Shown here piece by piece: positions 18,320 to 58,534 of a stretch of 64,000 nucleotides of DNA. Location of the stretch: the NCBI RefSeq assembly GCF_947259025.1, contig NZ_CAMYKO010000004.1:372001-436000 (forward strand). Reading direction: 5' to 3'. Origin of the DNA: an uncultured Methylophaga sp. GTDB lineage: Bacteria > Pseudomonadota > Gammaproteobacteria > Nitrosococcales > Methylophagaceae. The position numbers and the translations under genes were made by a program. Position 1 is the first letter of the stretch. Every line of letters begins with the position of its first letter. The notes below the pieces were generated by a model that did not search any database, was not told where the DNA came from, and was given only the letters and a program-made list of their open reading frames with translations.

Positions 18320-18378
18320 TGGTGCCCAGGGCCGGAATCGAACCGGCACGGCCGCAAGGCCGAGGGATTTTAAGTCCC
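18320..18378 (-). pseudogene. 3' half of the host tRNA-Leu(UAA) gene
   Basis: Read on the minus strand this runs from the anticodon loop (GGGACTTAAAATC) through the variable arm, an intact T arm (GCCGGTTCGATTCCGGC) and acceptor CCTGGGC to ACCA. The 5' half is missing; after the 13-bp core the sequence is element DNA. Its partner half is at 58,522-58,562. The two join across the core into a complete 87-nt tRNA-Leu with paired acceptor (GCCCAGG/CCTGGGC) and anticodon stem (AGGGA/TCCCT). Confidence 0.93.
18366..18378 (+). repeat. attL core (13-bp direct repeat)
   Basis: GATTTTAAGTCCC is repeated exactly at 58,522-58,534. It covers the anticodon loop and one stem side of tRNA-Leu(UAA), so the integrase crossed over at an anticodon-loop site. 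This marks the left junction of the 40-kb element. The remaining bases up to the integrase at 18,514 hold the arm-type repeat but no gene. Confidence 0.92.
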
Positions 18379-18513: not shown

Positions 18514-19731
18514 ATGACTAGAAAAATAACTATAAGCCAAAAATCTGTTGAAGCGCTTCCAATAACGGGGAAGCAAGTAGATTATTGGGATTCAAAGCTT
18601 ACAGGTTTTGGCGTTAGGGTTTCACCTGGTGGAACCAAGTCATATTTTTATACGGGTCGCCTTGATGGTAGACAGGTTCGTTGTAGCATAGGTAAGAATC
18701 AAATATTCAAGGCCGAGGCAGCCAGGCGAAAAGCCCTGGAGTATGCAGGCCAGTTAGCATCCGGAATTGATCCCAGAAAAAAAAGAGCTGAAGGTGTTTC
18801 TTTCGGGGTGTTGCTTGAGGAGTACATTGATTATTGCCGTAGAAGGGGCGTGGTCAGCACCAAACAGATAGAAAACACTTTAAGAAGAAATATTGAAAAA
18901 GGCTATCCCTCAATATGGAATAAGCCAGTATTGAGTATTTCAGACGATGACTGCATGAAAGTCATCAGGAAGCTAACCAGTAAAGAAAAGCTTAGAACAG
19001 CTGATAGAGTTCGCTCCTACATAAAGAGTGCGTTTACATACGCAATAAATTCGAAATCCAACACGCTTGCCTCTCAGTCCGTCCAGGATATTGGGGTTAC
19101 AGTTAATCCAGTAGCACAAATGAAAAAAATAGTTGGATCAAGTAACCCCAAACAAAATGCACTGAGCGCTTCTGAACTCAAGACATACTTCAAACATGTC
19201 AGTCAATTGCCAGAGCCCACAAAATCATTGATGACACTCCATCTGTTAACAGGTGGTCAACGTCAATCGATGCTGCAAAGGGTATTGATTGATGACATTG
19301 ATATGGATGCGCAAGTCATGACTTTGTATGATCGCAAGGGGCAGAGGCATAAACCAGAAATTCACATAGTCCCTTTGCTGGACAGTGCGGTTGAGTGCAT
19401 CAAAAAAATCACTGCTGGACCATATATATTCTCTTGCGATGGCGGTATAACACCAGTTAACACGGATTACTTCAACAGCAATGCTAAGAAGATCTTTGAA
19501 AAAATGTTCCCTGAAGATCAGATGGGCAAAGGTAAATACTCTGCAGGGATTATTAGATCAACCGTGGAGACACGTCTTTTAGCGAAGCCCTACCATGTTA
19601 GTAGTGATATTTTAGCGAGCTTATTAAGTCATGGCCGAGGTGGCGTTCAACAAAAGCACTACCAGCATTATGATTTTTATGATGAGAAACTTCAGGCTCT
19701 GCACATGCTTGAAAGAATGGTCAATGGATAA
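18514..19731 (+). CDS. int: Tyrosine recombinase integrase, P4-like with DUF4102 domain
   Basis: 405 aa. The N-terminal DUF4102-type arm-binding domain (ISQKSVEALPITGKQVDYWDSKL, GFGVRVSPGGTKSYFY) precedes the core-binding domain and catalytic domain. Catalytic blocks: the box I arginine in LTGGQRQSML, the lysine in YDRKGQ, box II IIRSTVETRL, LLSHGRGG, and the nucleophile in HYQHYDFYDEK. The box II histidine is replaced, as I believe occurs in a DIRRTxET-type subgroup. It sits beside attL and is almost certainly the enzyme that inserted the element. Confidence 0.92.
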   Translation: MTRKITISQKSVEALPITGKQVDYWDSKLTGFGVRVSPGGTKSYFYTGRLDGRQVRCSIGKNQIFKAEAARRKALEYAGQLASGIDPRKKRAEGVSFGVLLEEYIDYCRRRGVVSTKQIENTLRRNIEKGYPSIWNKPVLSISDDDCMKVIRKLTSKEKLRTADRVRSYIKSAFTYAINSKSNTLASQSVQDIGVTVNPVAQMKKIVGSSNPKQNALSASELKTYFKHVSQLPEPTKSLMTLHLLTGGQRQSMLQRVLIDDIDMDAQVMTLYDRKGQRHKPEIHIVPLLDSAVECIKKITAGPYIFSCDGGITPVNTDYFNSNAKKIFEKMFPEDQMGKGKYSAGIIRSTVETRLLAKPYHVSSDILASLLSHGRGGVQQKHYQHYDFYDEKLQALHMLERMVNG

Positions 19732-30749: not shown

Positions 30750-30780
30750 TGTGTATTACATGTATTTCATGTAATACACA
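30750..30780. repeat. Palindromic ATGTATTAC-type site before parA (operator or parS)
   Basis: Two 13-bp arms, TGTGTATTACATG (30,750-30,762) and CATGTAATACACA (30,768-30,780), flank a 5-bp spacer. It is 28 bp upstream of the parA start. ParA/RHH systems bind such sites both as operator and as centromere. The same core is found as tandem repeats at 57,371-57,406. Upstream, GGAATTCTGTCC at 30,694-30,705 is one half of the GGACAG-type palindrome seen at 57,332. Confidence 0.7.
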
Positions 30781-30807: not shown

Positions 30808-31440
30808 TTGATAGTTTCATTTTTAAACCAAAAAGGTGGCACCGGGAAAAGCGCTCTAGCCAGAACACTTGCTGTTGAGTTTGTGAGGAATGATTGGTCT
30901 GTGCACGTTGCAGATATGGATGTTGCACAATCTACCAGCTTTCAATGGGCAGGACGAAGAGCTGATGGGGAGCTTTCAAATGCTGTGGATGTAGCGCTAT
31001 ACAGAGATGTTAATAATTTATCCAAGCTTGATGGGTTGTATGACCTTCTGATTGTGGATGGAAAGGCTTTTGCAGACACGCATGCGTTACAGGTTGCCAG
31101 TTTGTCCAGCCTAGTTGTTATTCCTGTTGGGGTATCAGTTGATGACTTGAAACCTGCTTTGGACCTTGCTGTTGGCTTGGTTCAAAAAGGGGTTGATAAA
31201 GAGAAAATTCTATTTGTGATCAGCAAGGTCACAGAGAATGGTGAGCGCGAGGCAATGTTTTCCAGGTCATCCATACAGAATTGGGGATTTAAGGTTACAA
31301 GAGGGTGGGTTCCACTCAAAACGGCGTACAGCCAAACATTGGATATGGGTAAATCTCTTACTGAGACTAAGTACAAAGAGCTAAACGCAAAAGCTGACAG
31401 AATCATTAAGCAAATAGCGAGTAAATTGCTAGAGAAATAG
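30808..31440 (+). CDS. parA: ParA-family partition ATPase
   Basis: 210 aa, small type Ib-like ParA. The deviant Walker A (NQKGGTGKS, residue about 7), the Walker A' region (HVADMDVAQSTS) and the DGLYDLLIVDGK switch are present. The start is a TTG with a strong GGAGG 8 bp upstream. It is followed by an RHH partner, so the pair should position or stabilise the element when it is circular. Confidence 0.9.
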   Translation: MIVSFLNQKGGTGKSALARTLAVEFVRNDWSVHVADMDVAQSTSFQWAGRRADGELSNAVDVALYRDVNNLSKLDGLYDLLIVDGKAFADTHALQVASLSSLVVIPVGVSVDDLKPALDLAVGLVQKGVDKEKILFVISKVTENGEREAMFSRSSIQNWGFKVTRGWVPLKTAYSQTLDMGKSLTETKYKELNAKADRIIKQIASKLLEK

Positions 31441-31452
31441 GGAGATATTCGT

Positions 31453-31674
31453 ATGGCAAAAATTCAACCACCCAAGAGAGAAGTCACCAGTGAGCCGAAA
31501 AGTCCACTGGATCAGGCCGCGCCCAGTGGTAACTACACAACCCTTCAGATAAGAGGCGTCTCTGATGAGCTAAGAGATGACTTTAAAGTGGCGGTTTTAA
31601 AGTCTCCATATAAGAATATGGCCCAATTGTTTGAAGCCATGCTGCAAGAGTACAAGGAAAAGCATATGCTCTGA
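31453..31674 (+). CDS. Small RHH-type partner of ParA (ParG-like)
   Basis: 73 aa. A disordered, proline-rich N-terminal tail precedes a ribbon-helix-helix-like domain (TTLQIRGVSDELRDDFKVAVLKS, then MAQLFEAMLQEY). Gene order, size and fold match ParG/Omega-type centromere-binding proteins. It lies 12 bp after parA and probably binds the palindromic site upstream of parA. Confidence 0.75.
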   Translation: MAKIQPPKREVTSEPKSPLDQAAPSGNYTTLQIRGVSDELRDDFKVAVLKSPYKNMAQLFEAMLQEYKEKHML

Positions 31675-31717: not shown

Positions 31718-33880
31718 TCATACAATCTCTCTTTGAATCTCTCTATCCATGTTGATTTCTAAAGGTCTGCGGTCGGTGTACTGAATGACGTCTTTAACTT
31801 CTACATTTAGTTCTGCAACGTCGGCAATATCTCTCGACATCTGTTTTATGTATGGGTTTCCATCCACGCTCACTTCATAAGCATCATAGTGCTCTTTGAT
31901 GTGGTTCATTGCCTTTAACAATGACTTCGGATCTGTTTTGTTTAAATCAACCTCACGCCCGTTATCAGTAAAGATCAGTTCCCCTTGTTCGTTGCTGACA
32001 TAAGTTGGTTCACCTGGTGCGTCAACTGATACGCTCTTAGGTATGAGCTTTGGTGATTTATCTCTGCTTGCCTGAAAGGTAATAACATCCCGTGCATCGG
32101 CGTTACCCTGTTTCGATTCTTCAATAACAAACGAATGAAAGTCTCTAGATTTGAAAAGTGACTGAACCGCTTCGAACTTCTCTTTGTATTCGTTTCTGAT
32201 TTCGTCCAATGTTTCCTGAAACCGGCTTTCCATGACACCTTTTAGGTGCCGTTTGTAATCAGTTATAGACTGAGCAATTCTCTCCCTCATCTTCTTCTGA
32301 TCGTCCTCAGACATAGTCTCTAGTTCAGCCTCTTTCTTGGCGGAAAGCGAGAAATCTTTTAACTTCGTATTGAGCTCCCTATTGAATTGTCTGCGCGTTT
32401 CTCCAATCTCGGTGGTTCGCTCAGAGTTAAGCTTTTCTTTATTTAGGGATACGGACTCTTTATTAGAGATAAACTCATTTTCGAGCTGCTGCCTCTTCCC
32501 TATTATCCCTTGATACCACTCACCCTCTTGTTGGCTCCTATTTTTGTGTTGATTTGACTCGAACTCATAGAAGGTCTGAAGTTGTTTTTCTGATAGCCCT
32601 GGACGCACCTTTGGCAATGCTTTTCTATCGTTCTCTAAATCTGGGTTATTAGGATCAAGTGCCCGACTTACCTCCGCCCATGACCCATTAGTTGATAGCG
32701 TTTCATCAAGGTTTTTTACGCGTGCCCAGCTTCCAAGTTCTCTTGCGCTAATCCTATCTTGAGGGTTGGCGTTATGTTTAATGACGTAGCCGTTGCCTTG
32801 TCTCGCAATGTGCGAATTAAACTTGTTGTTGAGCATGTCATTAAGACCCGCCCAGGAAGCTTCGTAATCGGATGAAGATATGTATTGCTGCATCTCCAGA
32901 GATATGACCTCTTGCGCAAACAACTTGAACCCACGGCCGTTGTGTGAAAAACGCTCTTTATCAACGTGGCGGTGGTCGGCAGTCTCAATAAATTTATTGA
33001 AAGCCGGTCCATTTCTGGATAATTCCTTGTCGAGTGTTTTGATGCCTGCCCAATCACCTAAGACTGATGATTTTGCTCTCTCTGCTTGATGACCACTATT
33101 TGACGCAATAACATAGCCAGAGCCATATTTCTCTAGATGGCTGTCATGTTTATCATCAAGCAGGCTGGCTAACCCGTTCCAGTCAGGAGAGTCCTGCTTC
33201 AGATAGAGTTTGATGTCTTCAGCGATGACAGTTTGTGCATATCTGGAGTAGCTGACCATTCCAGACCTGAGCTCAAAATCTCTTACACTCTGACTAATAA
33301 TGCCACGCTCATGAGGTCGCTCGAATTTTTTCAGGTATTTCGTTTTGGCAAGCCCATCCTCACCTACCACCACTCTTCCATTGTCGTCTCGGACATAGTC
33401 GGCTAAGTGTGTGTAAGTTATATCCCAGCCTTGTTTGTACTCAATCTGTTTTACTGCTTCGTGAATTGTGGTGAATGACCACTCAATATGAAGCGATCGC
33501 CCAGTCTCCGGGTGAACTCGGTTTAGAACGCCGTGTATGTGAATGGAGTCTGAATCATAGTGGACTGAGCATACAATCTGATGTCCGTTTTCAGAGCGAT
33601 CTGCCCCAATCTTTTGAAGATATATGTCCACCGCCTCTTTTAGCTGTTCATCATTAGGTTTTTCGTGTGCTGGCCAAGACAATACGAAGTGATGAATAGG
33701 GTCTTTAACATTAGGGTTTTGAGTGGCCTCAGCTTTCATCTCGGCGTGCGCTGTTTCAATACTAAGAACATTATTTGCCCATACGTGGCCTTTGGTTTTT
33801 TCATGGTCAGTTGTGTAGGCGATAATATCCTTAAAACTTGAACGACCATCGCGACGTTGAGTTGGTATTTTCCCAATCAT
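31718..33880 (-). CDS. MOBP-family relaxase, RP4 TraI-like
   Basis: 720 aa. The nuclease domain aligns with RP4 TraI: catalytic Tyr22 in SFKDIIAYTTD, Ser68 in FVLSWPAHEKP and the metal-binding HYDSDSIHIHGVLNRVHP (His107, His114, His116). Two similar segments of about 90 aa follow (residues about 215-300 and 330-410, each with a DWAGIKTLD-like or SWARVKNLD-like end), resembling TraI middle domains. A coiled region leads to a C-terminal LPD7-like domain (GELIFTDNGREVDL). It nicks oriT and carries the strand into the recipient. Confidence 0.9.
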   Translation of the reverse strand: MIGKIPTQRRDGRSSFKDIIAYTTDHEKTKGHVWANNVLSIETAHAEMKAEATQNPNVKDPIHHFVLSWPAHEKPNDEQLKEAVDIYLQKIGADRSENGHQIVCSVHYDSDSIHIHGVLNRVHPETGRSLHIEWSFTTIHEAVKQIEYKQGWDITYTHLADYVRDDNGRVVVGEDGLAKTKYLKKFERPHERGIISQSVRDFELRSGMVSYSRYAQTVIAEDIKLYLKQDSPDWNGLASLLDDKHDSHLEKYGSGYVIASNSGHQAERAKSSVLGDWAGIKTLDKELSRNGPAFNKFIETADHRHVDKERFSHNGRGFKLFAQEVISLEMQQYISSSDYEASWAGLNDMLNNKFNSHIARQGNGYVIKHNANPQDRISARELGSWARVKNLDETLSTNGSWAEVSRALDPNNPDLENDRKALPKVRPGLSEKQLQTFYEFESNQHKNRSQQEGEWYQGIIGKRQQLENEFISNKESVSLNKEKLNSERTTEIGETRRQFNRELNTKLKDFSLSAKKEAELETMSEDDQKKMRERIAQSITDYKRHLKGVMESRFQETLDEIRNEYKEKFEAVQSLFKSRDFHSFVIEESKQGNADARDVITFQASRDKSPKLIPKSVSVDAPGEPTYVSNEQGELIFTDNGREVDLNKTDPKSLLKAMNHIKEHYDAYEVSVDGNPYIKQMSRDIADVAELNVEVKDVIQYTDRRPLEINMDREIQREIV

Positions 33881-34353
33881 TTTTCTGCCCTCGCAATGCG
33901 TGCAACGGCGTCAGTTGCTCTTCCAACAAGCGTTGATGTCTCAAGCAAAATGGAAGCTGTTTTATCTGAGTTGTCTTTGCCCTCTTGTGACTCAAGAAAG
34001 ACATGCTTAATCATTCCGGTCATCCTGTTGGTCTTGGCGATCAAGTCTCTCAATGTCTTGATGGTTTTCATGTCCATCTGACTGTGAACCGGATAACCGA
34101 TTACTCTCTTCCTGGTGTAATTACTGATCGTCAGTCCACTCATTTCAGAGTCTTCAGTAATTTCGGCGTACTCTTGCTCGCTAACACGAACAGTAATGAC
34201 CTTTGTTCTATTGCCAGTGTTGGTAGCTTTTGGCTTCTTTGCATCTTTCTTTTCTTTAAGCAAATACTGTTTTTCACGAAGCCTGTTGATCTGGTCAGCT
34301 ATTATTTCGAGCGTTAAATCATCGTTATCGTAATCGTTCTTATCGACTTCCAT
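33877..34353 (-). CDS. MobC/TraJ-like relaxosome protein (RHH)
   Basis: 158 aa. An RHH-like segment (KVITVRVSEQEYAEITEDSEMSGLTISNYTRKRVIG) is followed by the helical DLIAKTNRMTGMIKHVF region of mobilization proteins. It overlaps the relaxase start by 4 nt. In related systems this protein binds oriT and loads the relaxase. The predicted oriT begins about 45 bp upstream of its start. Confidence 0.82.
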   Translation of the reverse strand: MEVDKNDYDNDDLTLEIIADQINRLREKQYLLKEKKDAKKPKATNTGNRTKVITVRVSEQEYAEITEDSEMSGLTISNYTRKRVIGYPVHSQMDMKTIKTLRDLIAKTNRMTGMIKHVFLESQEGKDNSDKTASILLETSTLVGRATDAVARIARAEK

Positions 34354-44378: not shown

Positions 44379-44624
44379 ATGCGGTTTGTTAGCGATCTTC
44401 TATCACAGATCATCATCACTCAGGTTGTTTTAGCTTTTTTATGTGTTCAGTTTGAGCTTGAAATGGTGTCTATTTTGGCGCTCCTGAGATTTTCATTTTT
44501 GTACACGATGTTTTTATTTATCTCTGTAGTGCTTGCTGTCTATTTGGCTTTTATCGTACTGAGAACGACTTTAAATGGTAGAGCGGGACAGCGTGTCGCT
44601 AATGAATCAAGGGAGTGGGAGTAA
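44379..44624 (+). CDS. Small two-helix membrane protein
   Basis: 81 aa with two hydrophobic helices (LLSQIIITQVVLAFLCVQF; FLYTMFLFISVVLAVYLAFIVL) and a charged tail. It is 3 bp after the secreted protein gene and overlaps the coupling-protein gene by 10 bp, so it is translated with it. Possibly an accessory of the coupling protein; not recognised. Confidence 0.65.
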   Translation: MRFVSDLLSQIIITQVVLAFLCVQFELEMVSILALLRFSFLYTMFLFISVVLAVYLAFIVLRTTLNGRAGQRVANESREWE

Positions 44625-46669
44625 TGTTTTGGAATATTTTGTATGAAAAGCTCAACACGCTACCGTTTGCTGCAGCCTCTGCCGGAGCTGTTATTGGTCA
44701 TGCTGTAGGCAGCGACCAACTCTATCAGCTTATGCGTTCAGAACATTATGCAGGTGTAATTTCAGGAATACCTACAGCAACTGATGTTATCAGTGCTTTA
44801 AATCCTATCGCCGGCGGGGTTCTAACGTATTGCCTTGCGAGGTCTACGGGGAATATTTTTAATTCTCATAAGGCCAGTTATCTAGCGCTACGACAATATT
44901 TATCATCAAGTGAGTTCTTTACTTATACGCTCCCAGAGTGGCCGGGTCATTCTGGGAATGGCGTTCGACTGGTTATTGGCGAGACTCACTCCGAAGATCC
45001 CTCGGATACAACTTTTTCTGACAATCCTGCGTGGTACACAATCAATGAGCGTGGTTTATATACGGGCATAATCGCTTATGGGGGCGTTGGTGCGGGTAAG
45101 ACTGCTACCTTCATGTACCCCTGTATTGAACAAATGTTTGAGTACAAAAGTAGTGATATTGAAAAGCGGGTAGGCGGCCTGGTGCTGGATGTTAAAGGAG
45201 ATTTCGTTGCTTATGTCGAAGAGCAGGCGATTAAACATGGTCGTGAAGCCAGTCTTCTAAAAATACGCCCTGGAAATGGTGTTAAGTGGAACCCAGTTCA
45301 TGAGCCAAATATGGATGTAAAGGTTCTTACATATAGGCTTCAAGGTATTTACGAGAATATGAATTCTTTTGACGAGGGCGCCAATGCTTGGGTTACCGAT
45401 GAAATGCTAAAACTTCTGGAGTGTGCCATTGGCATTATCCGCGTCTCGGAGGGTTATGTAACCATCAAGGCTGTTCATGAATTTATATTAAAAATCAGCA
45501 GGCCAGCAGCAGAGGAGGATGAGCGAGATATCAGGGATGGGTTGCCTCAAGACCCTAGGGCTCGACTGGATATGATTCGACATAAATATCGAAAACACTG
45601 TAAGAGTGAAGAACTTCGATCTGAACTTGGAGAGGGGGTAACGCCTGCAGCAAAAACCAAGGCCTGGATTGATGATATGAGTCAAAGAGAATTTGATGGT
45701 TACTATGATTATTTCGCTGATGAGTATTTAGGCAAGTCTGAACGAGAGAGAGATATTGCTAAGTCCGCACTCACTAAGATTACACAGCAATTCATGAGTC
45801 CGGTAATGCAGGACACATACTCTCCGGCAGAAGAAGATATAACATTCAAAGGTTTTGATGCCGTAATCGAAGATGGTGACATTGTTGCTTTAGACCTTGG
45901 TTCCACTAATGGTCCAATTGCGGGCGTGCTTGGAATTGCGCTGAAGCTTGCCTTTGAGAAAGCTGCACTTGCAAGGGTTGAGCGAGCCAAAAGAGATCCA
46001 TCTGTCAACACAGATAGAGTTTTAATGCTTGTTTGTGACGAGTATCAGCGGTTTGCATCTGCTGCTGGGAAGAGGTGTCCTGAAGGCGATGATGAGTTCT
46101 TCGCTCAATCCCGACAATCAAAATGCTTTCCCTTGCTCGCAACTCAGCAGCCCTCTTCTTTAATCAACTCGGTTGGCGAGAAAGCGGCGGTGAACATTAT
46201 GAACAACATCAGGACTAGGGTCGTCTTATCTATCTCAGCTGAAGATGATGCTGAAGACATAAGTCGAGGGCTGGGTAAACATGAAGTGAAGAAAAAAAGT
46301 GAGTCTGTTAATGAAAATTTCGATGGCGGGTTTAACCCTTTAACAAGCAAGGTTGAGGGCGGGAGTAGTGGTATGGGCAAGAGTGCCAGCTACAGCACTG
46401 AAAGAGATGTCCAAGTTTACCCTGAGCAGATAAGGGCACTAAGAATGGGTGAGGCTATCATTTCTGTCTTCGATGGTAGTGAGCTGCGCCCACCAAGAAA
46501 AGTCTTTCTTAAAACACACTTTATGCCGGACTTCTTTGAAGATATTTATGACAGCCCAAGGGAAATCCCTTGGAAGGAGCTTTACGAATGGCATTCCCTT
46601 GTAGGTAAGGATAAGTTTGATGCGCAGGCGGAATATAAGTCATTCAATAAAATTAGGTGGGCATTGTAA
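44615..46669 (+). CDS. VirD4/TraG-type type IV coupling protein
   Basis: 684 aa. After an N-terminal membrane region (PFAAASAGAVIGHAV; ISALNPIAGGVLTYCL), Walker A is GGVGAGKTATFMYP (about residue 155) and Walker B is LMLVCDEYQRFAS (about residue 470), followed by TQQPSSLINS. This is the ATPase that links a relaxosome to a mating pore. No VirB4-type or VirB11-type ATPase is found on the element, so it probably docks to a pore from another element. Confidence 0.88.
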   Translation: MGVMFWNILYEKLNTLPFAAASAGAVIGHAVGSDQLYQLMRSEHYAGVISGIPTATDVISALNPIAGGVLTYCLARSTGNIFNSHKASYLALRQYLSSSEFFTYTLPEWPGHSGNGVRLVIGETHSEDPSDTTFSDNPAWYTINERGLYTGIIAYGGVGAGKTATFMYPCIEQMFEYKSSDIEKRVGGLVLDVKGDFVAYVEEQAIKHGREASLLKIRPGNGVKWNPVHEPNMDVKVLTYRLQGIYENMNSFDEGANAWVTDEMLKLLECAIGIIRVSEGYVTIKAVHEFILKISRPAAEEDERDIRDGLPQDPRARLDMIRHKYRKHCKSEELRSELGEGVTPAAKTKAWIDDMSQREFDGYYDYFADEYLGKSERERDIAKSALTKITQQFMSPVMQDTYSPAEEDITFKGFDAVIEDGDIVALDLGSTNGPIAGVLGIALKLAFEKAALARVERAKRDPSVNTDRVLMLVCDEYQRFASAAGKRCPEGDDEFFAQSRQSKCFPLLATQQPSSLINSVGEKAAVNIMNNIRTRVVLSISAEDDAEDISRGLGKHEVKKKSESVNENFDGGFNPLTSKVEGGSSGMGKSASYSTERDVQVYPEQIRALRMGEAIISVFDGSELRPPRKVFLKTHFMPDFFEDIYDSPREIPWKELYEWHSLVGKDKFDAQAEYKSFNKIRWAL

Positions 46670-49530: not shown

Positions 49531-50595
49531 ATGAGTCACGATCAAGATTCTACTACAGCGTCAGATTTAAATACAAAAGAGCAAATCAGTATCGAGTCTG
49601 TGCAGCTCTCTGAAGAAGCACTGGATGAGCATGTAGAAGGGCTGATTAATATCAGATACGAGCCAACAAAAGATGACATTGAGTTGGCCAGCAGGGCAAG
49701 GGAGAAGCCAGTCAAAGACACGCGTGTTCTCGTTGATGATTACATGCGAATCTTGGAAGAAAGAAGCCAGGGCATTATGCGCCACATTCCAAGTGGGTTC
49801 GAAAGTTTAGACGACGAGCCCTGGTTGGAAAATGGAACACTGGTAATTATTGGCGGAAGACCCGCAATGGGTAAAACCGCCTTTGGTCAACAAATAGCTG
49901 AAAACACCTGCTCAGAAGATTCAACAACTCTTTTCTTTTCTCTTGAAATGAATGGTGTTCAAGTTACTGAGCGTTCAGTTTCTCGACGTTCAGGTGTTGA
50001 AATTCCTAAAATTAAAAAATGGGAAGTAACCGAGAAAGACGTAGATGACTTAGTTGCTGCAACTGTCGAGTTCAAGCAATTAAATCTACTGGTTGACCCA
50101 GTCTCAATGTCGATTCAGGAGTTAGTAGCCATAGCTCACAAGGTGAAGGATGGTCTTGAAAGCCGAGAATTACCTCCACTCAAATGTATTGTGATTGATT
50201 ACCTTCAAAATATTGAAGTGCTGGGGCGTGAAAATGCTGAAGAAAAAACGAAGGTTTCTTACGTATCGAGACAGTTGAAATGGTTGGCTAAGGAGCTTGA
50301 TATTCCAGTGGTTGCCCTGTGTCAGTTAAACAGGGCAGTTGAAAGTAGACAGGATAAGCGTCCTAGCCTTTCTGATTTAAAAGAGTCGGGGCAAATTGAG
50401 CAAGACGCTGAAATTATCCTTTTTATTTACAGGGATGAGTATTACAACACCGACTCTGATATGCAGGGAGTCGCTGAGATTATCCGAGCTAAATCAAGAA
50501 ATGGGAGTACCGGGACTACGTATCTGAAGTTTCATGGTAAGACGGCTACGTTTTCGGACATGAATAAGCCGGAGAGTCTGAAATGGGCGGCGTAA
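49531..50595 (+). CDS. DnaB-like replicative helicase (C-terminal domain)
   Basis: 354 aa. The RecA-fold helicase domain is complete: Walker A GGRPAMGKTAFG (about residue 110), FFSLEMN, Walker B VIDYLQNI, and the LCQLNRAVESRQDKRP block with SDLKESGQIEQDA. The N-terminal DnaB domain is replaced by about 90 residues of unrelated sequence. It likely serves replication of the excised element, together with the TrfA-like initiator whose start overlaps its stop. Confidence 0.9.
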   Translation: MSHDQDSTTASDLNTKEQISIESVQLSEEALDEHVEGLINIRYEPTKDDIELASRAREKPVKDTRVLVDDYMRILEERSQGIMRHIPSGFESLDDEPWLENGTLVIIGGRPAMGKTAFGQQIAENTCSEDSTTLFFSLEMNGVQVTERSVSRRSGVEIPKIKKWEVTEKDVDDLVAATVEFKQLNLLVDPVSMSIQELVAIAHKVKDGLESRELPPLKCIVIDYLQNIEVLGRENAEEKTKVSYVSRQLKWLAKELDIPVVALCQLNRAVESRQDKRPSLSDLKESGQIEQDAEIILFIYRDEYYNTDSDMQGVAEIIRAKSRNGSTGTTYLKFHGKTATFSDMNKPESLKWAA

Positions 50596-51482
50596 TGAAT
50601 GAGACAGTATCAGGCAGTCTGTCAGCTTTAACGACACGGCTTAAGCAAAATACTGTAAAAGCCTCAGTGGTGGATGAGGCTGTTGTTGAGGATAGGGCTT
50701 CGAACGACAGTTTTGGTTCTTCAGAGCGTGTTGTGGAGGCTATAAAGCGTTTTCCTGATGAGGTCAGCATTCTACCCACAGAGTTGACTCGGACGGCGCT
50801 TTTCCCTCTAAGGCTCAAGAAGCAAGAAAGGCGTCTCCTAAATAAAACGAAGCTAGCAAGCAGGCAGGATGTAACGCTTGAATATACCGGTATCGAATTG
50901 GACCAGGATGATGCAGATATTTGGCTGGCCTGCATTAGGCTGTCAAATGGTCATGGGTTAGGTGAGCGTGTATATACATCCGCGTCTGCCCTATTAAGAG
51001 AGTCAGGAAGAAAGGGGCGTGGTGGTGACAACATCAAGTTGCTGTTGGAGTCCCTAGATAGACTTTCATCAGCTGATATTAAAGTCACATACAAAAGGAA
51101 CGGACAAGTTCAGGATGCTCATTTATTTCTGCTGAAGAGTGGTGTTAACCACGCAACAAAAGAGATCTATTTTCGTTTAGATCCTGAGGCAGCTGAGCTG
51201 TTCAGGAACGTTGCTTACATTGGCTGGGATGCAAGGTGCAAACTCAAGAGTAGAAAAGCAAAAGCTATTCACTCATATATTTGCGGTCACAAAGCAGGGA
51301 AAAGACACACAGTAAGACTTACAGATCTCATGACATGGCTGGGCCACAAGGGCCGTAAAGCAGACTTCCTTAAGAACTTGGATACAGCTTGCAATGAAAT
51401 CGTCAATGTAAGCGAAATCACCGACCTAGATATAAATAAAAAAGCTGACAGGATCAGTTGGGTGCGCTCACATAATGCTTAA
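50595..51482 (+). CDS. TrfA-like plasmid replication initiator
   Basis: About 295 aa from the ATG at 50,595, which overlaps the helicase stop (TAATG); an in-frame ATG at 50,583 is also possible. The central part (LTRTALFPLRLKKQERRLLNK, QDVTLEYTGIELDQDDADIWLACIRLS) and the winged-helix regions resemble TrfA/RepA initiators of IncP-like replicons. The iterons directly downstream are its probable targets. Confidence 0.8.
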   Translation: MNETVSGSLSALTTRLKQNTVKASVVDEAVVEDRASNDSFGSSERVVEAIKRFPDEVSILPTELTRTALFPLRLKKQERRLLNKTKLASRQDVTLEYTGIELDQDDADIWLACIRLSNGHGLGERVYTSASALLRESGRKGRGGDNIKLLLESLDRLSSADIKVTYKRNGQVQDAHLFLLKSGVNHATKEIYFRLDPEAAELFRNVAYIGWDARCKLKSRKAKAIHSYICGHKAGKRHTVRLTDLMTWLGHKGRKADFLKNLDTACNEIVNVSEITDLDINKKADRISWVRSHNA

Positions 51483-51501: not shown

Positions 51502-51580
51502 GCGTCAGTTGGGCGTAAATCTGCGTCAGTTGGGCGTAAGGATGCGTCAGTTGGGCGTAAGGATGCGTCAGTTGGGCGTT
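51502..51580 (+). repeat. Four 21-bp iterons (predicted oriV)
   Basis: GCGTCAGTTGGGCGTAA starts at 51,502, 51,523, 51,544 and 51,565 with a 21-bp period; units 2 and 3 end in GGAT, and the last unit is truncated after GGGCGTT. The array begins 20 bp after the initiator gene. AT-rich DNA and inverted repeats (GCATTGCTATCGCAATGC near 51,707) follow up to 51,833. No gene is seen in this 350-bp stretch; it is a good replication-origin candidate. Confidence 0.82.
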
Positions 51581-52398: not shown

Positions 52399-52444
52399 CG
52401 GCTTGTTAAAGCCATTATCGTTTTTAGCTACGTGTGGAGGGTTT

Positions 52445-53992
52445 ATGAAACCTTTTTTTAAATTCGGGGTGATTGATGCGGCGGTTACCCTATCAGCAAT
52501 GCTTTTAGTTGCATCTGTCACTTATGCAGATAGCGTTAACATCGGTGAAAACAACGAGGTAGCTTCTGAAGCTATTGGTATAGGAACCAATATGGTTGTG
52601 GGACCGGAGTTGATGCCAACAAATCCTTACCTTGAAGAGAATGAGTATTCTCAGGGGATTGGTTACAACTCCACTGTTTCTTATGGTGGAAATTTATTCG
52701 GCCGTGAATCACGAACTGCCGGTGGGAATATATTCGGTAATTATTCTAGTGGGGGAGGAACCTCGAATCTTTTTGGTAACTATCTTGATGGAAGGAATGG
52801 TTCAATTCTGATTGGTAATGACTCATATGGTAATAACGGCAACTGCCTGGGTGATCATTGTTATGCCGTGCTTGGTGATGCAATTGGTGACTACAGTAAA
52901 GTTACAGAACACAATGTAGTGTCATTTGGTAACTCTGATATTGACTTGCAACGTCGACTAACCAATGTTGCCGAAGGGGTTGATGCTACAGACGCTGTAA
53001 ATAAGGGGCAGATGGAGGGTTATGTCGCTTCAAAGATTGTAAACGAGGACGGCGTCGTAACTTTTAGCGATGGCGAGCCTATTTACGATACTGCAGCCTA
53101 TGAGTCCGACCTTGAAGACTGGCACTCCCAGGCGCCTCAAGAAGATAGTTTTTATTCGGATGAGCCGGATATATTTGATTTCGATGAACCTGAACCAGAA
53201 TATTCTGATTATTTTGACCCTGACACTGGTACGGTTGATCAAGCCGCCTATGACGCTGCTTACGATGAATGGATCATAAACGGCCTTGATTTTGAAGCTT
53301 ACGACTCAGCGTATCAGTCCTGGTATGAAAATGAATACACACCTGGCGTTGAGCAATACAACAACGCATATGCAGATTACCAGGCAGCTAATCCTGCTCC
53401 CAATCAGTTTGATGATGCTTACATTACCAGTGATGGATATTCCAGGGTTGCGAATATTGCAGACCCCGTTGAGTCTACAGATGCTGCTAACAAGCGTTAT
53501 GTTGATGAAAATGATCAGCGAGTCCTGTCAGAAGCACAGGAATATTCAGACGAAGGTGATAGACAGGTGTTATCAGAAGCGCAAGAATATTCAGACGAAG
53601 GTGATAGGCAGGTGTTGTCTTCTGCAAATTCATACACCGATGCGAGCGTAAGCCGTTCAAACGCTGCCAGCACTGCTTACACGGATAAGAAGTTTCAAGA
53701 GAGTATCTCTTACACTAACCAGCGTTTTGATGAATTAGATTCTCGAATCGATGAGCTAGAAAGTGAGTATTCATCTGCCATTGCAGAGGTTGCCGCCATG
53801 CCGATCCTTCCGGCAATGGTCAAAGGTGATTATACAATTGCTCTAGGAACGGGGTATTACAACAAAAAGGCAGCATTAGGCATGACTTTTGGTCATCAGT
53901 TTGATCATAGGTCACTTGTATATGGAGGGGTTTCCGCTTCAACCGGTGCAAAGCCAGTTCTTAGAGCTGGTGTCAGCTTTACTTTTCGTTAA
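52445..53992 (+). CDS. Trimeric autotransporter adhesin (YadA-like)
   Basis: About 515 aa from the ATG at 52,445 (GGAGGG upstream). A signal peptide is followed by head-like repeats rich in glycine and asparagine (GGNIFGNYSSGGG, SILIGNDSYGN), a YadA-type neck (LTNVAEGVDATDAVNKGQME), a highly acidic, tyrosine-rich segment (about residues 205-320), a second neck (VANIADPVESTDAANKRYVD), a coiled stalk with repeats of about 12 residues (LSEAQEYSDEGDRQ) and a C-terminal barrel anchor (GDYTIALGTGYYNKKAALGM...VSFTF). It should be an outer-membrane adhesin. Confidence 0.88.
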   Translation: MKPFFKFGVIDAAVTLSAMLLVASVTYADSVNIGENNEVASEAIGIGTNMVVGPELMPTNPYLEENEYSQGIGYNSTVSYGGNLFGRESRTAGGNIFGNYSSGGGTSNLFGNYLDGRNGSILIGNDSYGNNGNCLGDHCYAVLGDAIGDYSKVTEHNVVSFGNSDIDLQRRLTNVAEGVDATDAVNKGQMEGYVASKIVNEDGVVTFSDGEPIYDTAAYESDLEDWHSQAPQEDSFYSDEPDIFDFDEPEPEYSDYFDPDTGTVDQAAYDAAYDEWIINGLDFEAYDSAYQSWYENEYTPGVEQYNNAYADYQAANPAPNQFDDAYITSDGYSRVANIADPVESTDAANKRYVDENDQRVLSEAQEYSDEGDRQVLSEAQEYSDEGDRQVLSSANSYTDASVSRSNAASTAYTDKKFQESISYTNQRFDELDSRIDELESEYSSAIAEVAAMPILPAMVKGDYTIALGTGYYNKKAALGMTFGHQFDHRSLVYGGVSASTGAKPVLRAGVSFTFR

Positions 53993-54557: not shown

Positions 54558-56006
54558 CTAAAGCTCTAATTCTAGACCTCTATCTCGCTTGATATCCTTG
54601 GAGAGGCAGTTAACTTCTCTGCGGTACAATTCCATATCACTCTTCATAGTAACCAACTCATCTGACCAGTCTTTTTCCAGTTTTGGCTTGTGGCGAATGC
54701 TTCCGATTAGCTCCTTATTGGCCTGTTCGGCGAACCGGTTACCGTGTTCATCATTATCAAAGCCAAGATACACCGCCTCAATATCATTCTTCACTATAAA
54801 GAGATTAATGTTCTTATAAATGTCTTTTACCGGTGCGCCGGCGGTACTTATGGTTTTGATGCCATGGATTTCGGCATATGCCAGGGAGTCAACCGCGCTC
54901 TCACAGATTGCTAGTCGGTTTTCATATTTGAGATCGTTGGGGGTGGCAGTGAAGAAAGTGCTCTTGTTAGAGCCAGGAGCAACTTGCTTGAATGTGCTTC
55001 CATCAATCATCTTTGATGTACCAACAATCTCTGCCCCGCTTTTGTTGCCTTGAATATCACGCATAACAAAAACAGCGTTTCCCTTGATGTCGGCATAGAC
55101 ATCACCAAGATCAACTGCTGACTTATCAATCCCTTTCCTTAGAAGGTAGTCGGTGACACGGCCAGATTTATTAATATCTGGTTCTGGCAACGAAAGTTGC
55201 GGTTTATTTATTGTTTTCTTCACTACAGGCTTGGGCTCGAACGTCTTGAGTGATACGCCCTCATTTAACTCTTTAACAGCATCACTGAACGAGCATTGAT
55301 TGATGTGCATTACCAAGTCTATGGCGCCAACTCCAGCTTCGTTAGTAGCCCAGTTACTCCAAACGTTGGGGTTATTTTTCTTTATGGAAATTGCACTGCC
55401 ATCGGTATCAGTTCTATGCCATCTGAATCCTGCTCTGTCATCTTGCTCATAACCAGCCCTGTGCAGGACCTCTTGGAGCGAGATTGAGCGAAGCGCATCG
55501 AGTTTGTGCTTAAGTTCAGAAGGTAGGGGGTCACCACCTTTGAATCTCGCCAAGCTTGAAACTCTCTTCTGTCCCCTGTTGAGACCTATTTCTTTTACCG
55601 CATTGGCATACTGGTCTTGCAATGATGCCAGCTTGCCTGGTGAGCCTATAAAGCTTCTTGCGCTCAGCTTATCTCCATTCAGAGGCACAAATGTGTAATG
55701 AATTTCAGGTGCGCCATTTCGCTTGGCTAATGTGACATCAATATAGTTGGACGGGCCAAAGTGTTCCTTGGCCCACTCAACAGATAAATCCTTCCACTCT
55801 CTGATTGTCCTGTTGTCGCAGGACTCATAAAACTTTTTCGATACACTCATTACAACCTCAACAGCGTGAACCGCATCTTTTCGCGGGGGGGTGCTAAGAG
55901 TGAGATCAATTTTTTCGGAGGCCAGTTTTGCTACAGACTTTCCTCTCTTCAGCTCCAATTCATTAAGCGTTTTGATCTTATTTATTTCCAACATCGCTTT
56001 ATTCAT
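54558..56006 (-). CDS. Primase: degenerate MobV-like domain fused to DUF3991/Toprim
   Basis: 482 aa. Residues about 40-148 follow the MobV (Mob_Pre) relaxase pattern: RKDAVHAVEVVMSVSKKFYE, EHFGPSNYIDVTL, IHYTFVPLNGDKLSARSF, SLQDQYANAVKEIGLNRG. The metal motif HxDExTPHxH is reduced to one His (H103), so nicking is unlikely. The C-terminal half has a DUF3991-like core (SNWATNEAGVGAIDLVMHI) and a Toprim domain (LAICESAVDSLAY; LGFDNDEHG). It probably primes DNA synthesis after transfer or in replication. Confidence 0.78.
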   Translation of the reverse strand: MNKAMLEINKIKTLNELELKRGKSVAKLASEKIDLTLSTPPRKDAVHAVEVVMSVSKKFYESCDNRTIREWKDLSVEWAKEHFGPSNYIDVTLAKRNGAPEIHYTFVPLNGDKLSARSFIGSPGKLASLQDQYANAVKEIGLNRGQKRVSSLARFKGGDPLPSELKHKLDALRSISLQEVLHRAGYEQDDRAGFRWHRTDTDGSAISIKKNNPNVWSNWATNEAGVGAIDLVMHINQCSFSDAVKELNEGVSLKTFEPKPVVKKTINKPQLSLPEPDINKSGRVTDYLLRKGIDKSAVDLGDVYADIKGNAVFVMRDIQGNKSGAEIVGTSKMIDGSTFKQVAPGSNKSTFFTATPNDLKYENRLAICESAVDSLAYAEIHGIKTISTAGAPVKDIYKNINLFIVKNDIEAVYLGFDNDEHGNRFAEQANKELIGSIRHKPKLEKDWSDELVTMKSDMELYRREVNCLSKDIKRDRGLELEL

Positions 56007-56015
56007 ATCCCCTCC

Positions 56016-57224
56016 TTAGGCTAGGTCGAGACCAACGTCAAGCTCTCTTTTTTGTGAGAGGGCATCCGAGCTGGGCAGCCTGGCTAGTGAGTTCAAGCGT
56101 TGCTTCTCCTGGTCAGACAGATGTGATGCTTCCTGATCTAACTGCTGAGTTTTGGTTGTTAGACCATCATCTCTTTCGAGAACTGTTAAATCCTTTTGCA
56201 TATTGAGCACAACAGATAGGTCGTCAGCACGGCTTTTGAATTGTTCATTACCAGATACTTTCAGCTTTACCCGACTTTCATTTTCAGCGATAGGCTTAAA
56301 TTTCTCTTGAGCATAAATCAGGCCCGCAGCAACACTTTTATTGTCTGTCATTACCATTTCAACGCTTTTACCTGTATCAATGAAAACCGCTTTACCTTCT
56401 TGATTATGGTGAACGCCAGGGTAAATTGTTGTATCTGGCTTACCCCTCATTAATTGTTCTTGAGAATACTCTTTGAGACGGACCTCAAAAGCATCCTCAA
56501 CAGGGTCGGTTTGCTGAGTTTTGTGCTGAACAAATTTTTCGAAATAATTGCCTTCAAATTCACGGGTGCCAGGGAATAACTGTTCTACAGAGTGAGAACT
56601 GCTATCAAACTCTGGAGAGGTTATGACGGGTATGTGCTGACCATTAGCTTCATAATCAATCACCTTCTGAGCGTCTGAGTTATCCTCCAAGGCTTGCTTA
56701 TGAAGGTAATCATCAAATGTTTCTGAGTGATCGTAAAGTGAATTGAGCTCATCTAGTTTTACTTGGAAGTGCTCCCTAATTTCTTCAGCTTTAGTTTGAT
56801 TCAAATTTGTAAGAAAACTCTTGTAGTCTGCTCTATCTTGTGCAGCTTTTTTCAGAAATTTACTTGCCTCGTCTTCACTCATCTCCGAAACGTTTTGATA
56901 AGCCTTGTCATAGTTTTCACGGTTGTTTAACTCACGCTCGATAGATGCGTCGATATCTTCAAGGGATTGTTGAAGCTCTTGCTCCAGCCTTTCCCTACCT
57001 ACCTTGAGGATTTGTGTATCTTGCATGTAGTCGAGTTGAAGCCTGTCCTTGAGCTTGTCCATGCCCTGACTCCAAGTTGCCTCAGTAGCATTTATAACTT
57101 CATCGTGGCTTTCGGCGGCTTCCTGAATCAAGGCTCCCCTAAGCTGTTGGTGGGCTGGCTTTGCACCGCCATCCAGGAACTCCTCGTTGTTCATCCGCTG
57201 CATCCATGAATCTTTACTACTCAT
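56016..57224 (-). CDS. Coiled-coil protein with LPD7-like domain
   Basis: 402 aa. Long helical, charged first half (residues about 40-200; LERELQQSLEDIDASIEREL-type coiled coil), then an LPD7-like segment (GKAVFIDTGKSVEMVMTDNKSVAAGLIYAQEKF). The same domain ends the relaxase (GELIFTDNGREVDL...). It is 9 bp upstream of the primase gene and in one operon with it. It may hold relaxase and primase together; this is inferred. Confidence 0.65.
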   Translation of the reverse strand: MSSKDSWMQRMNNEEFLDGGAKPAHQQLRGALIQEAAESHDEVINATEATWSQGMDKLKDRLQLDYMQDTQILKVGRERLEQELQQSLEDIDASIERELNNRENYDKAYQNVSEMSEDEASKFLKKAAQDRADYKSFLTNLNQTKAEEIREHFQVKLDELNSLYDHSETFDDYLHKQALEDNSDAQKVIDYEANGQHIPVITSPEFDSSSHSVEQLFPGTREFEGNYFEKFVQHKTQQTDPVEDAFEVRLKEYSQEQLMRGKPDTTIYPGVHHNQEGKAVFIDTGKSVEMVMTDNKSVAAGLIYAQEKFKPIAENESRVKLKVSGNEQFKSRADDLSVVLNMQKDLTVLERDDGLTTKTQQLDQEASHLSDQEKQRLNSLARLPSSDALSQKRELDVGLDLA

Positions 57225-57331: not shown

Positions 57332-57347
57332 GGACAGAATTCTGTCC
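57332..57347. promoter_or_regulatory. Perfect GGACAG palindrome before the primase operon
   Basis: GGACAGAATTCTGTCC is a perfect 16-bp palindrome about 110 bp upstream of the LPD7 gene. Half-copies of the same GGACAG box occur at six other element sites (30,694; 34,533; 43,424; 48,521; 52,332). Likely a binding site of an element-wide regulator. Confidence 0.7.
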
Positions 57348-57370
57348 TAAATTAGGAGTATCTATGTAAT

Positions 57371-57406
57371 ACATGTATTACATGTATTACATGTATTACA
57401 TGTATT
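57371..57406. repeat. Four tandem 9-bp ACATGTATT repeats
   Basis: Unit ACATGTATT repeated four times without gaps. The same core forms the palindrome upstream of parA (30,750-30,780). Tandem sites of this kind act as centromeres or operators for RHH partition proteins. The rest of the gap (57,225-57,452) holds no gene. Confidence 0.72.
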
Positions 57407-57452
57407 ATATTTGTAATATGTGAGATATCTGTCGCAGCTATGCGGGGTAATG

Positions 57453-58345: not shown

Positions 58346-58432
58346 TGGTGCCCGGGGCCGGAATCGAACCGGCACGGCCTAACGGCCGCAAGATTTTAAG
58401 TCTTGTGTGTCTACCAATTTCACCACCCGGGC
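58346..58432 (-). tRNA. tRNA-Leu(UAA), complete, element-borne
   Basis: 87 nt. Acceptor GCCCGGG/CCCGGGC, D arm TGGTGAAATTGGTAGACACA, anticodon stem CAAGA/TCTTG around loop CTTAAAA (anticodon UAA), long variable arm, T arm GCCGGTTCGATTCCGGC, encoded ACCA end. It lies inside the element 90 nt from attR and on the same strand as the split host gene, so it can replace the lost isoacceptor. Confidence 0.95.
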
Positions 58433-58459: not shown

Positions 58460-58521
58460 TGAAAATAAATATAATTCTTAATAAGTTGATTTTTATATGT
58501 TTTTTCCGGGGCGGTGAAGAG

Positions 58522-58534
58522 ATTTTAAGTCCCT
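58522..58534 (+). repeat. attR core (13-bp direct repeat)
   Basis: GATTTTAAGTCCC, identical to 18,366-18,378. The sequence on the element side (GGGGCGGTGAAGA) does not rebuild the tRNA 3' half, so integration destroyed the host gene rather than restoring it. Confidence 0.92.

Follow-up and report, generated by a model that had tools for sequence, protein, structure and literature searches.

A plasmid-like element in a tRNA-Leu gene

The window analyzed here, a stretch of 64,000 nucleotides from an uncultured Methylophaga sp., contains a 40-kb integrated, mobilisable, plasmid-like element. The element is bounded by a 13-nt core, GATTTTAAGTCCC, at positions 18366-18378 and 58521-58533. The cores sit inside a tRNA-Leu(UAA) gene that is split at the anticodon loop, with its halves 40,155 bp apart, and joining the flanks in silico rebuilt the tRNA-Leu(UAA). 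A complete tRNA-Leu(UAA) is carried near the right end of the element (58346-58432). No other intact close copy was found in the genome by DNA search, the next match being a tRNA-Leu GAG.

A tyrosine integrase is encoded at 18514..19731 (plus strand). It is followed by a ParA-type ATPase (30808..31440, plus), and the small ORF directly past parA (31437-31668) resembles a DNA-binding partition protein and is a candidate partner. The mobilization genes encode a MobP-type relaxase with an intact H-x-D-x3-H-x-H motif and an LPD7 C terminus (31718..33880, minus), a NikA-like accessory protein (33877..34353, minus), and a TraD/TraG-like type IV coupling protein (44615..46669, plus). The coupling protein is of a rare type, with relatives of about 31% identity on Agarilytica pSU3 and in two genomes of the gammaproteobacterial class; these sister elements (Agarilytica pSU3, G268, and G172) gave no MobV or TOPRIM match. 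For replication, the element encodes a DnaB-like helicase (49531..50595, plus) and a TrfA-like initiator (50583..51482, plus). Directly after the latter gene, a 21-bp unit is tandemly repeated 3.7 times (51502-51579) and may represent origin iterons; in an overlapping ORF, the same unit codes for the repeat ASVGRKD. A YadA-type trimeric autotransporter-like protein is encoded at 52403-53992.

The gene studied here lies at 54558..56006 (minus) and encodes P0001, a protein of 482 aa in which a degenerate MobV (HUH) domain is followed by DUF3991 and a TOPRIM primase. Its frame is open from end to end, and its ATG, with a strong Shine-Dalgarno sequence (AAGGAGGGGAT) in front, lies 9 bases past the stop of the upstream gene. 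A frameshift pseudogene was ruled out by this open frame and good ribosome site. The upstream gene, in the same apparent operon, encodes an LPD7-domain protein of 402 aa (56016..57224, minus), which is similar to the C-terminal region of the MobP relaxase encoded by the element (E=3e-12). This LPD7 protein had no plasmid match, and within the same order it was found in its own genome only.

The promoter region of the operon (57332..57409) contains a palindrome, GGACAGAATTCTGTCC, at 57332-57347 and 9-bp repeats, ATGTATTAC, at 57364-57409. A second cluster of ATGTATTAC is found upstream of parA (30751..30779), and these two promoters are the only places in the window with such clusters. The 18-bp pattern of the repeats matched 12 times, vs 0.07 matches expected. 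The palindrome GGACAGAATTCTGTCC had no further good match elsewhere in the window. The shared 9-bp repeats are likely a common operator or centromere.

A relaxase domain without its active site, joined to a primase

Profile searches placed Mob_Pre (E=1.2e-14, aa 38-148), DUF3991 (E=1e-5, aa 297-352), and Toprim_2 (E=1.2e-8, aa 367-450) in this order in a single ORF, with all three Pfam matches exceeding the curated cut-offs. The NCBIfam MobV profile also matched (E=1.5e-21), at 77.3 bits, which is under its 100-bit equivalog cut-off, and it aligned from profile position 45 onward only. A PDB sequence search gave a sole match, the MobM relaxase (4lvi; E=2.2e-5, residues 40-155). Judged from these Pfam, NCBIfam, and PDB matches, the likeness of P0001 to MobV relaxases is one of homology and not of chance. 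A previous reading, made from the sequence only, had fitted residues 40-148 to the Mob_Pre pattern and taken the C-terminal half for a DUF3991-Toprim primase. Both assignments were borne out, the Mob_Pre match being significant; the extent was set too short, as the Mob-like region reaches approximately residue 1. From the Pfam match and the structure match described below, the MobV-like HUH domain without an active site was assigned to residues 1-155 (55542..56006, minus).

The former metal-binding motif III (residues 94-103; 55698..55727, minus) reads A-K-R-N-G-A-P-E-I-H. Compared with H-x-D-E-x-T-P-H-x-H, the protein has A94, R96, N97, A99, P100, E101, and H103, so that H103 is the only metal-ligand histidine left in the motif. 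Where all aligned relatives have L-H-x-D-E-x-T-P-H, P0001 reads L-A-K-R-N-G-A-P-E-I-H. The sequence-only reading was correct that one of three histidines is kept and overlooked the loss of motifs I and II. In an alignment with full-length relatives, P0001 is some 25 residues short in the motif I/II segment (HTAR...TPNAD): the motif I catalytic histidine, with E18 or a gap in its column, is lost or unrecognisable, and motif II (NAD) is deleted. Having lost both the segment with the histidine nucleophile and the ligands for the metal, the HUH domain should not nick DNA. In addition, since the element has an intact-looking MobP relaxase of its own, along with TrfA, a DnaB-like helicase, and ParA, P0001 is unlikely to be the nickase of the element.

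An AlphaFold model was built with an alignment of 52 relatives that are intact in the relaxase domain, and the pLDDT was >90 across most of residues 1-140. When the model was compared with DNA-bound MobM (5n2q), residues 2-155 were superimposed with a Z of 18.1 and an rmsd of 2.9 over 152 aligned residues (VIA-align), vs a Z of <10 for relaxases of other families; the relaxase-like fold proposed earlier was thus recovered in the prediction. MobM of pMV158 (MOBV1; 4lvi and 5n2q), which shares this fold, differs from P0001 in that it has no primase half and is active as a histidine relaxase. Both the alignment and the model retain the beta-1 strand (residues 2-12); residues 1-13 align with the first strand, and K10 and K12 are conserved. 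The structural positions R42, V46, W78, P100, P108, Q130, R144, and G145 are also kept, whereas the catalytic ones are lost. When residues 1-150 were folded alone without an alignment, the pLDDT was 47.8 and no confident fold was obtained; the modeled fold is partly carried by the intact relatives in the alignment and gained no independent support from this run. The dead domain probably retains the HUH shape.

The primase half (residues ~165-458; 54633..55514, minus) consists of a CHC2-like region, DUF3991, and TOPRIM. E369, D417, D419, D446, and W447 are retained, among them the catalytic Glu and DxD of TOPRIM primases (E369, D417, and D419). The CHC2-like segment has no Cys/His zinc ligands, and the aligned DUF3991-TOPRIM relatives likewise lack them. 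In the model, residues 269-457 matched the T7 gp4 primase with a Z of 15.7; across T7 gp4 and DnaG primases, which share the TOPRIM core (residues 269-458) and have no HUH domain, Z ranged from 10 to 15.7. We infer primase activity for this half. No ATG occurs from codon 54 to codon 232, and no strong Shine-Dalgarno-led start lies by the domain border; thus, the primase half is not easily made without the Mob domain.

Relatives of the fusion protein

A tblastn search of plasmids with P0001 returned 24 records that spanned at least 80% of the protein, mostly from Nostocales. Among the records were also the alphaproteobacterial fusions of Paracoccus aestuarii pAES1 (= p2926) and Zymomonas pZMOBP6. 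These fusions, like those on the Nostoc/Calothrix plasmids, resemble P0001 in full domain order at 26-30% identity; they keep motif I and H-x-D-E-x-x-P-H, neither of which is present in P0001. The architecture is therefore not unique to P0001; it is known and has gone unremarked. The records are usually annotated "MobV family relaxase," and in the available part of its report the pAES1 protein is termed a MOBV2 relaxase, with the primase half going unmentioned there (PMC3832669). A literature search found no paper joining MOBV, relaxase, TOPRIM, and primase, and no description of the primase half of such fusions.

The sequence-only reading had pointed to RSF1010 MobA-RepB as an analogous but unrelated fusion. 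The RSF1010-type protein (MobA-RepB') does join a relaxase to a primase, and MobA gave a Z of 9.5 against the P0001 model. However, its relaxase is active, and both of its domains belong to families other than those of P0001: the relaxase is MOBQ, and the primase has an unrelated archaeo-eukaryotic fold (PMC5862659). The intact MobV-DUF3991-TOPRIM fusions, which are widespread on cyanobacterial plasmids, are the nearer comparison. Stand-alone DUF3991-TOPRIM proteins on Xanthomonas and Pseudomonas plasmids resemble the primase half at about 30% identity and have no relaxase domain; on X. albilineans plasmIII, such a gene stands beside trfA, in a TrfA-type replicon, as for P0001. No hidden Mob_Pre was found in DUF3991-TOPRIM proteins with long N-terminal extensions.

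From plasmids and genome contigs, 67 other ORFs with both halves were collected, one of them truncated by a contig end. Some are near-copies, and at 70% identity they formed 24 clusters. H-x-D-E-x-x-P-H was kept in all 66 fusions with motif III in view, a count biased to intact relaxases because motif III was one of the two recruiting patterns; searches with P0001 itself, which are free of this bias, also returned intact relaxases only. A second dead-relaxase fusion was not found in approximately 1,100 genomes, plasmids, phages, or viral contigs, among them the searched genomes of the same order, class, and phylum and of one other class. Peptide-pattern scans of genome contigs and viral contigs gave no close relatives of P0001.

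At the TOPRIM Glu position, the fusion clusters (L004-L096) have Lys in 16/24, Glu in 7/24, and Phe in 1/24, and a few relatives have lost DxD as well. Most cyanobacterial fusions have Lys where P0001 keeps Glu; pAES1, pZMOBP6, and P0001 all retain Glu and DxD. Given the known role of the residue, Lys at this position would abolish catalysis. Since the Lys-bearing fusions keep the relaxase motif and P0001 keeps the TOPRIM residues, the two halves appear to have decayed reciprocally, one lineage dropping primase residues and keeping the relaxase, and P0001 doing the opposite.

Constraint was assessed at columns conserved in the cyanobacterial fusion proteins at a 95% threshold. P0001 keeps 3/13 catalytic-motif columns, 16/41 other Mob columns, and 35/54 primase columns; the corresponding values are 12/13, 26/41, and 45/54 for pAES1 and 11/13, 23/41, and 40/54 for pZMOBP6. 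By these counts (3/13 catalytic vs 16/41 other Mob columns), loss in P0001 is heaviest at the relaxase active site, yet not limited to it. The net charge of the Mob domain is +9, vs a mean of 2.9 (standard deviation, 3.0) in intact relatives. In the Mob tree, P0001 is the longest branch (2.66 vs a median of 0.25). By phylogeny, its TOPRIM half belongs with proteins from outside the cyanobacteria, some of them fused and others stand-alone (95/99 support). The trees would fit an inherited fusion and an independent fusion alike, and column retention, charge, and branch length are compatible with a new binding role as well as with decay.

Possible roles of the dead domain

The best reading, which we hold tentatively, is that P0001 is a primase of the element in which the dead HUH domain serves as a DNA-binding tether. 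The ancestor of P0001 would have been a relaxase-primase with the MobV-DUF3991-TOPRIM architecture. The dead HUH domain would bind the element at a putative site, either a hairpin or single-stranded DNA, and hold the TOPRIM half there, and primers might then be laid on the element DNA in TrfA/DnaB-driven replication or on the strand transferred by MobP. This reading is favored by the Mob_Pre and TOPRIM matches, the MobM-like predicted fold, the basic Mob domain, the loss centered on the active site, and the retained TOPRIM residues. The Mob domain being made with the primase was also counted in favor, as were an element with its own MobP, TrfA, DnaB-like helicase, and ParA and the 9-bp repeat common to the operon and parA promoters. 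Speaking against it are the failure of the searches of approximately 1,100 sequence sets to turn up a close relative with such a dead domain, the long Mob branch, and the lower retention of non-catalytic Mob columns (16/41) than of primase columns (35/54).

A DNA-binding guide, as the sequence-only reading had proposed, is plausible. Its suggested target, the transferred strand, is weakly supported by the element's own MobP; the TrfA, the DnaB-like helicase, and the shared repeats suit replication or maintenance at least equally. Because the two promoters share repeats and the element carries TrfA and a DnaB-like helicase, we lean toward replication over transfer. If the dead domain still binds DNA, P0001 would be a natural case in which a nickase of conjugation became a primase-targeting module, and it would account for the way a small element directs its primase to the starting place.

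Nearly as likely as the tether is a vestigial Mob domain, a serious possibility on the present evidence. Here, a relaxase-primase would have entered a MobP-bearing element, redundant nicking would have been lost, and the primase half alone would work. The MobP relaxase in the same element would make nicking by P0001 redundant, the Mob branch is very long, and the TOPRIM half keeps a larger share of its conserved residues than the Mob half does. However, the frame is intact and the predicted core fold persists, although the frame alone is weak proof with the primase downstream in the same frame. The retention of structural positions while catalytic ones were lost, and of a net basic charge, also speaks against simple decay.

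A role of the dead domain as a regulator, binding its own promoter and controlling the LPD7-primase operon, is unlikely. MobM of pMV158, which binds oriT/promoter repeats, offers a precedent, as it was proposed to self-regulate via an inverted repeat at its own promoter (PMC5863519), and palindromes as well as 9-bp repeats occur in the promoter of the operon. However, the 9-bp repeats also lie upstream of parA and are more likely an operator or centromere for the candidate DNA-binding partner.

Even less probable is that the primase half is inactive too, leaving P0001 as a structural or accessory factor. The CHC2-like region without zinc ligands would agree with this, but the ligands are missing in the aligned relatives as well, P0001 retains E369, D417, and D419, and its predicted fold is that of T7 and DnaG primases. 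Finally, nicking of DNA by a different chemistry, for which H103 and possibly R21 are left, is highly improbable, since P0001 has lost the histidine position of motif I, all of motif II, and 4/5 metal-site residues.

With the tether as the preferred role, a broader and more speculative view, which we consider doubtful, is of a lineage in which either half is dispensable. The dead HUH domain of P0001 would then be a sequence- or hairpin-specific placer of the primase, and the Nostocales proteins would have an active relaxase with a non-catalytic TOPRIM. The reciprocal catalytic loss makes the purpose of the fusion testable by comparing both kinds.
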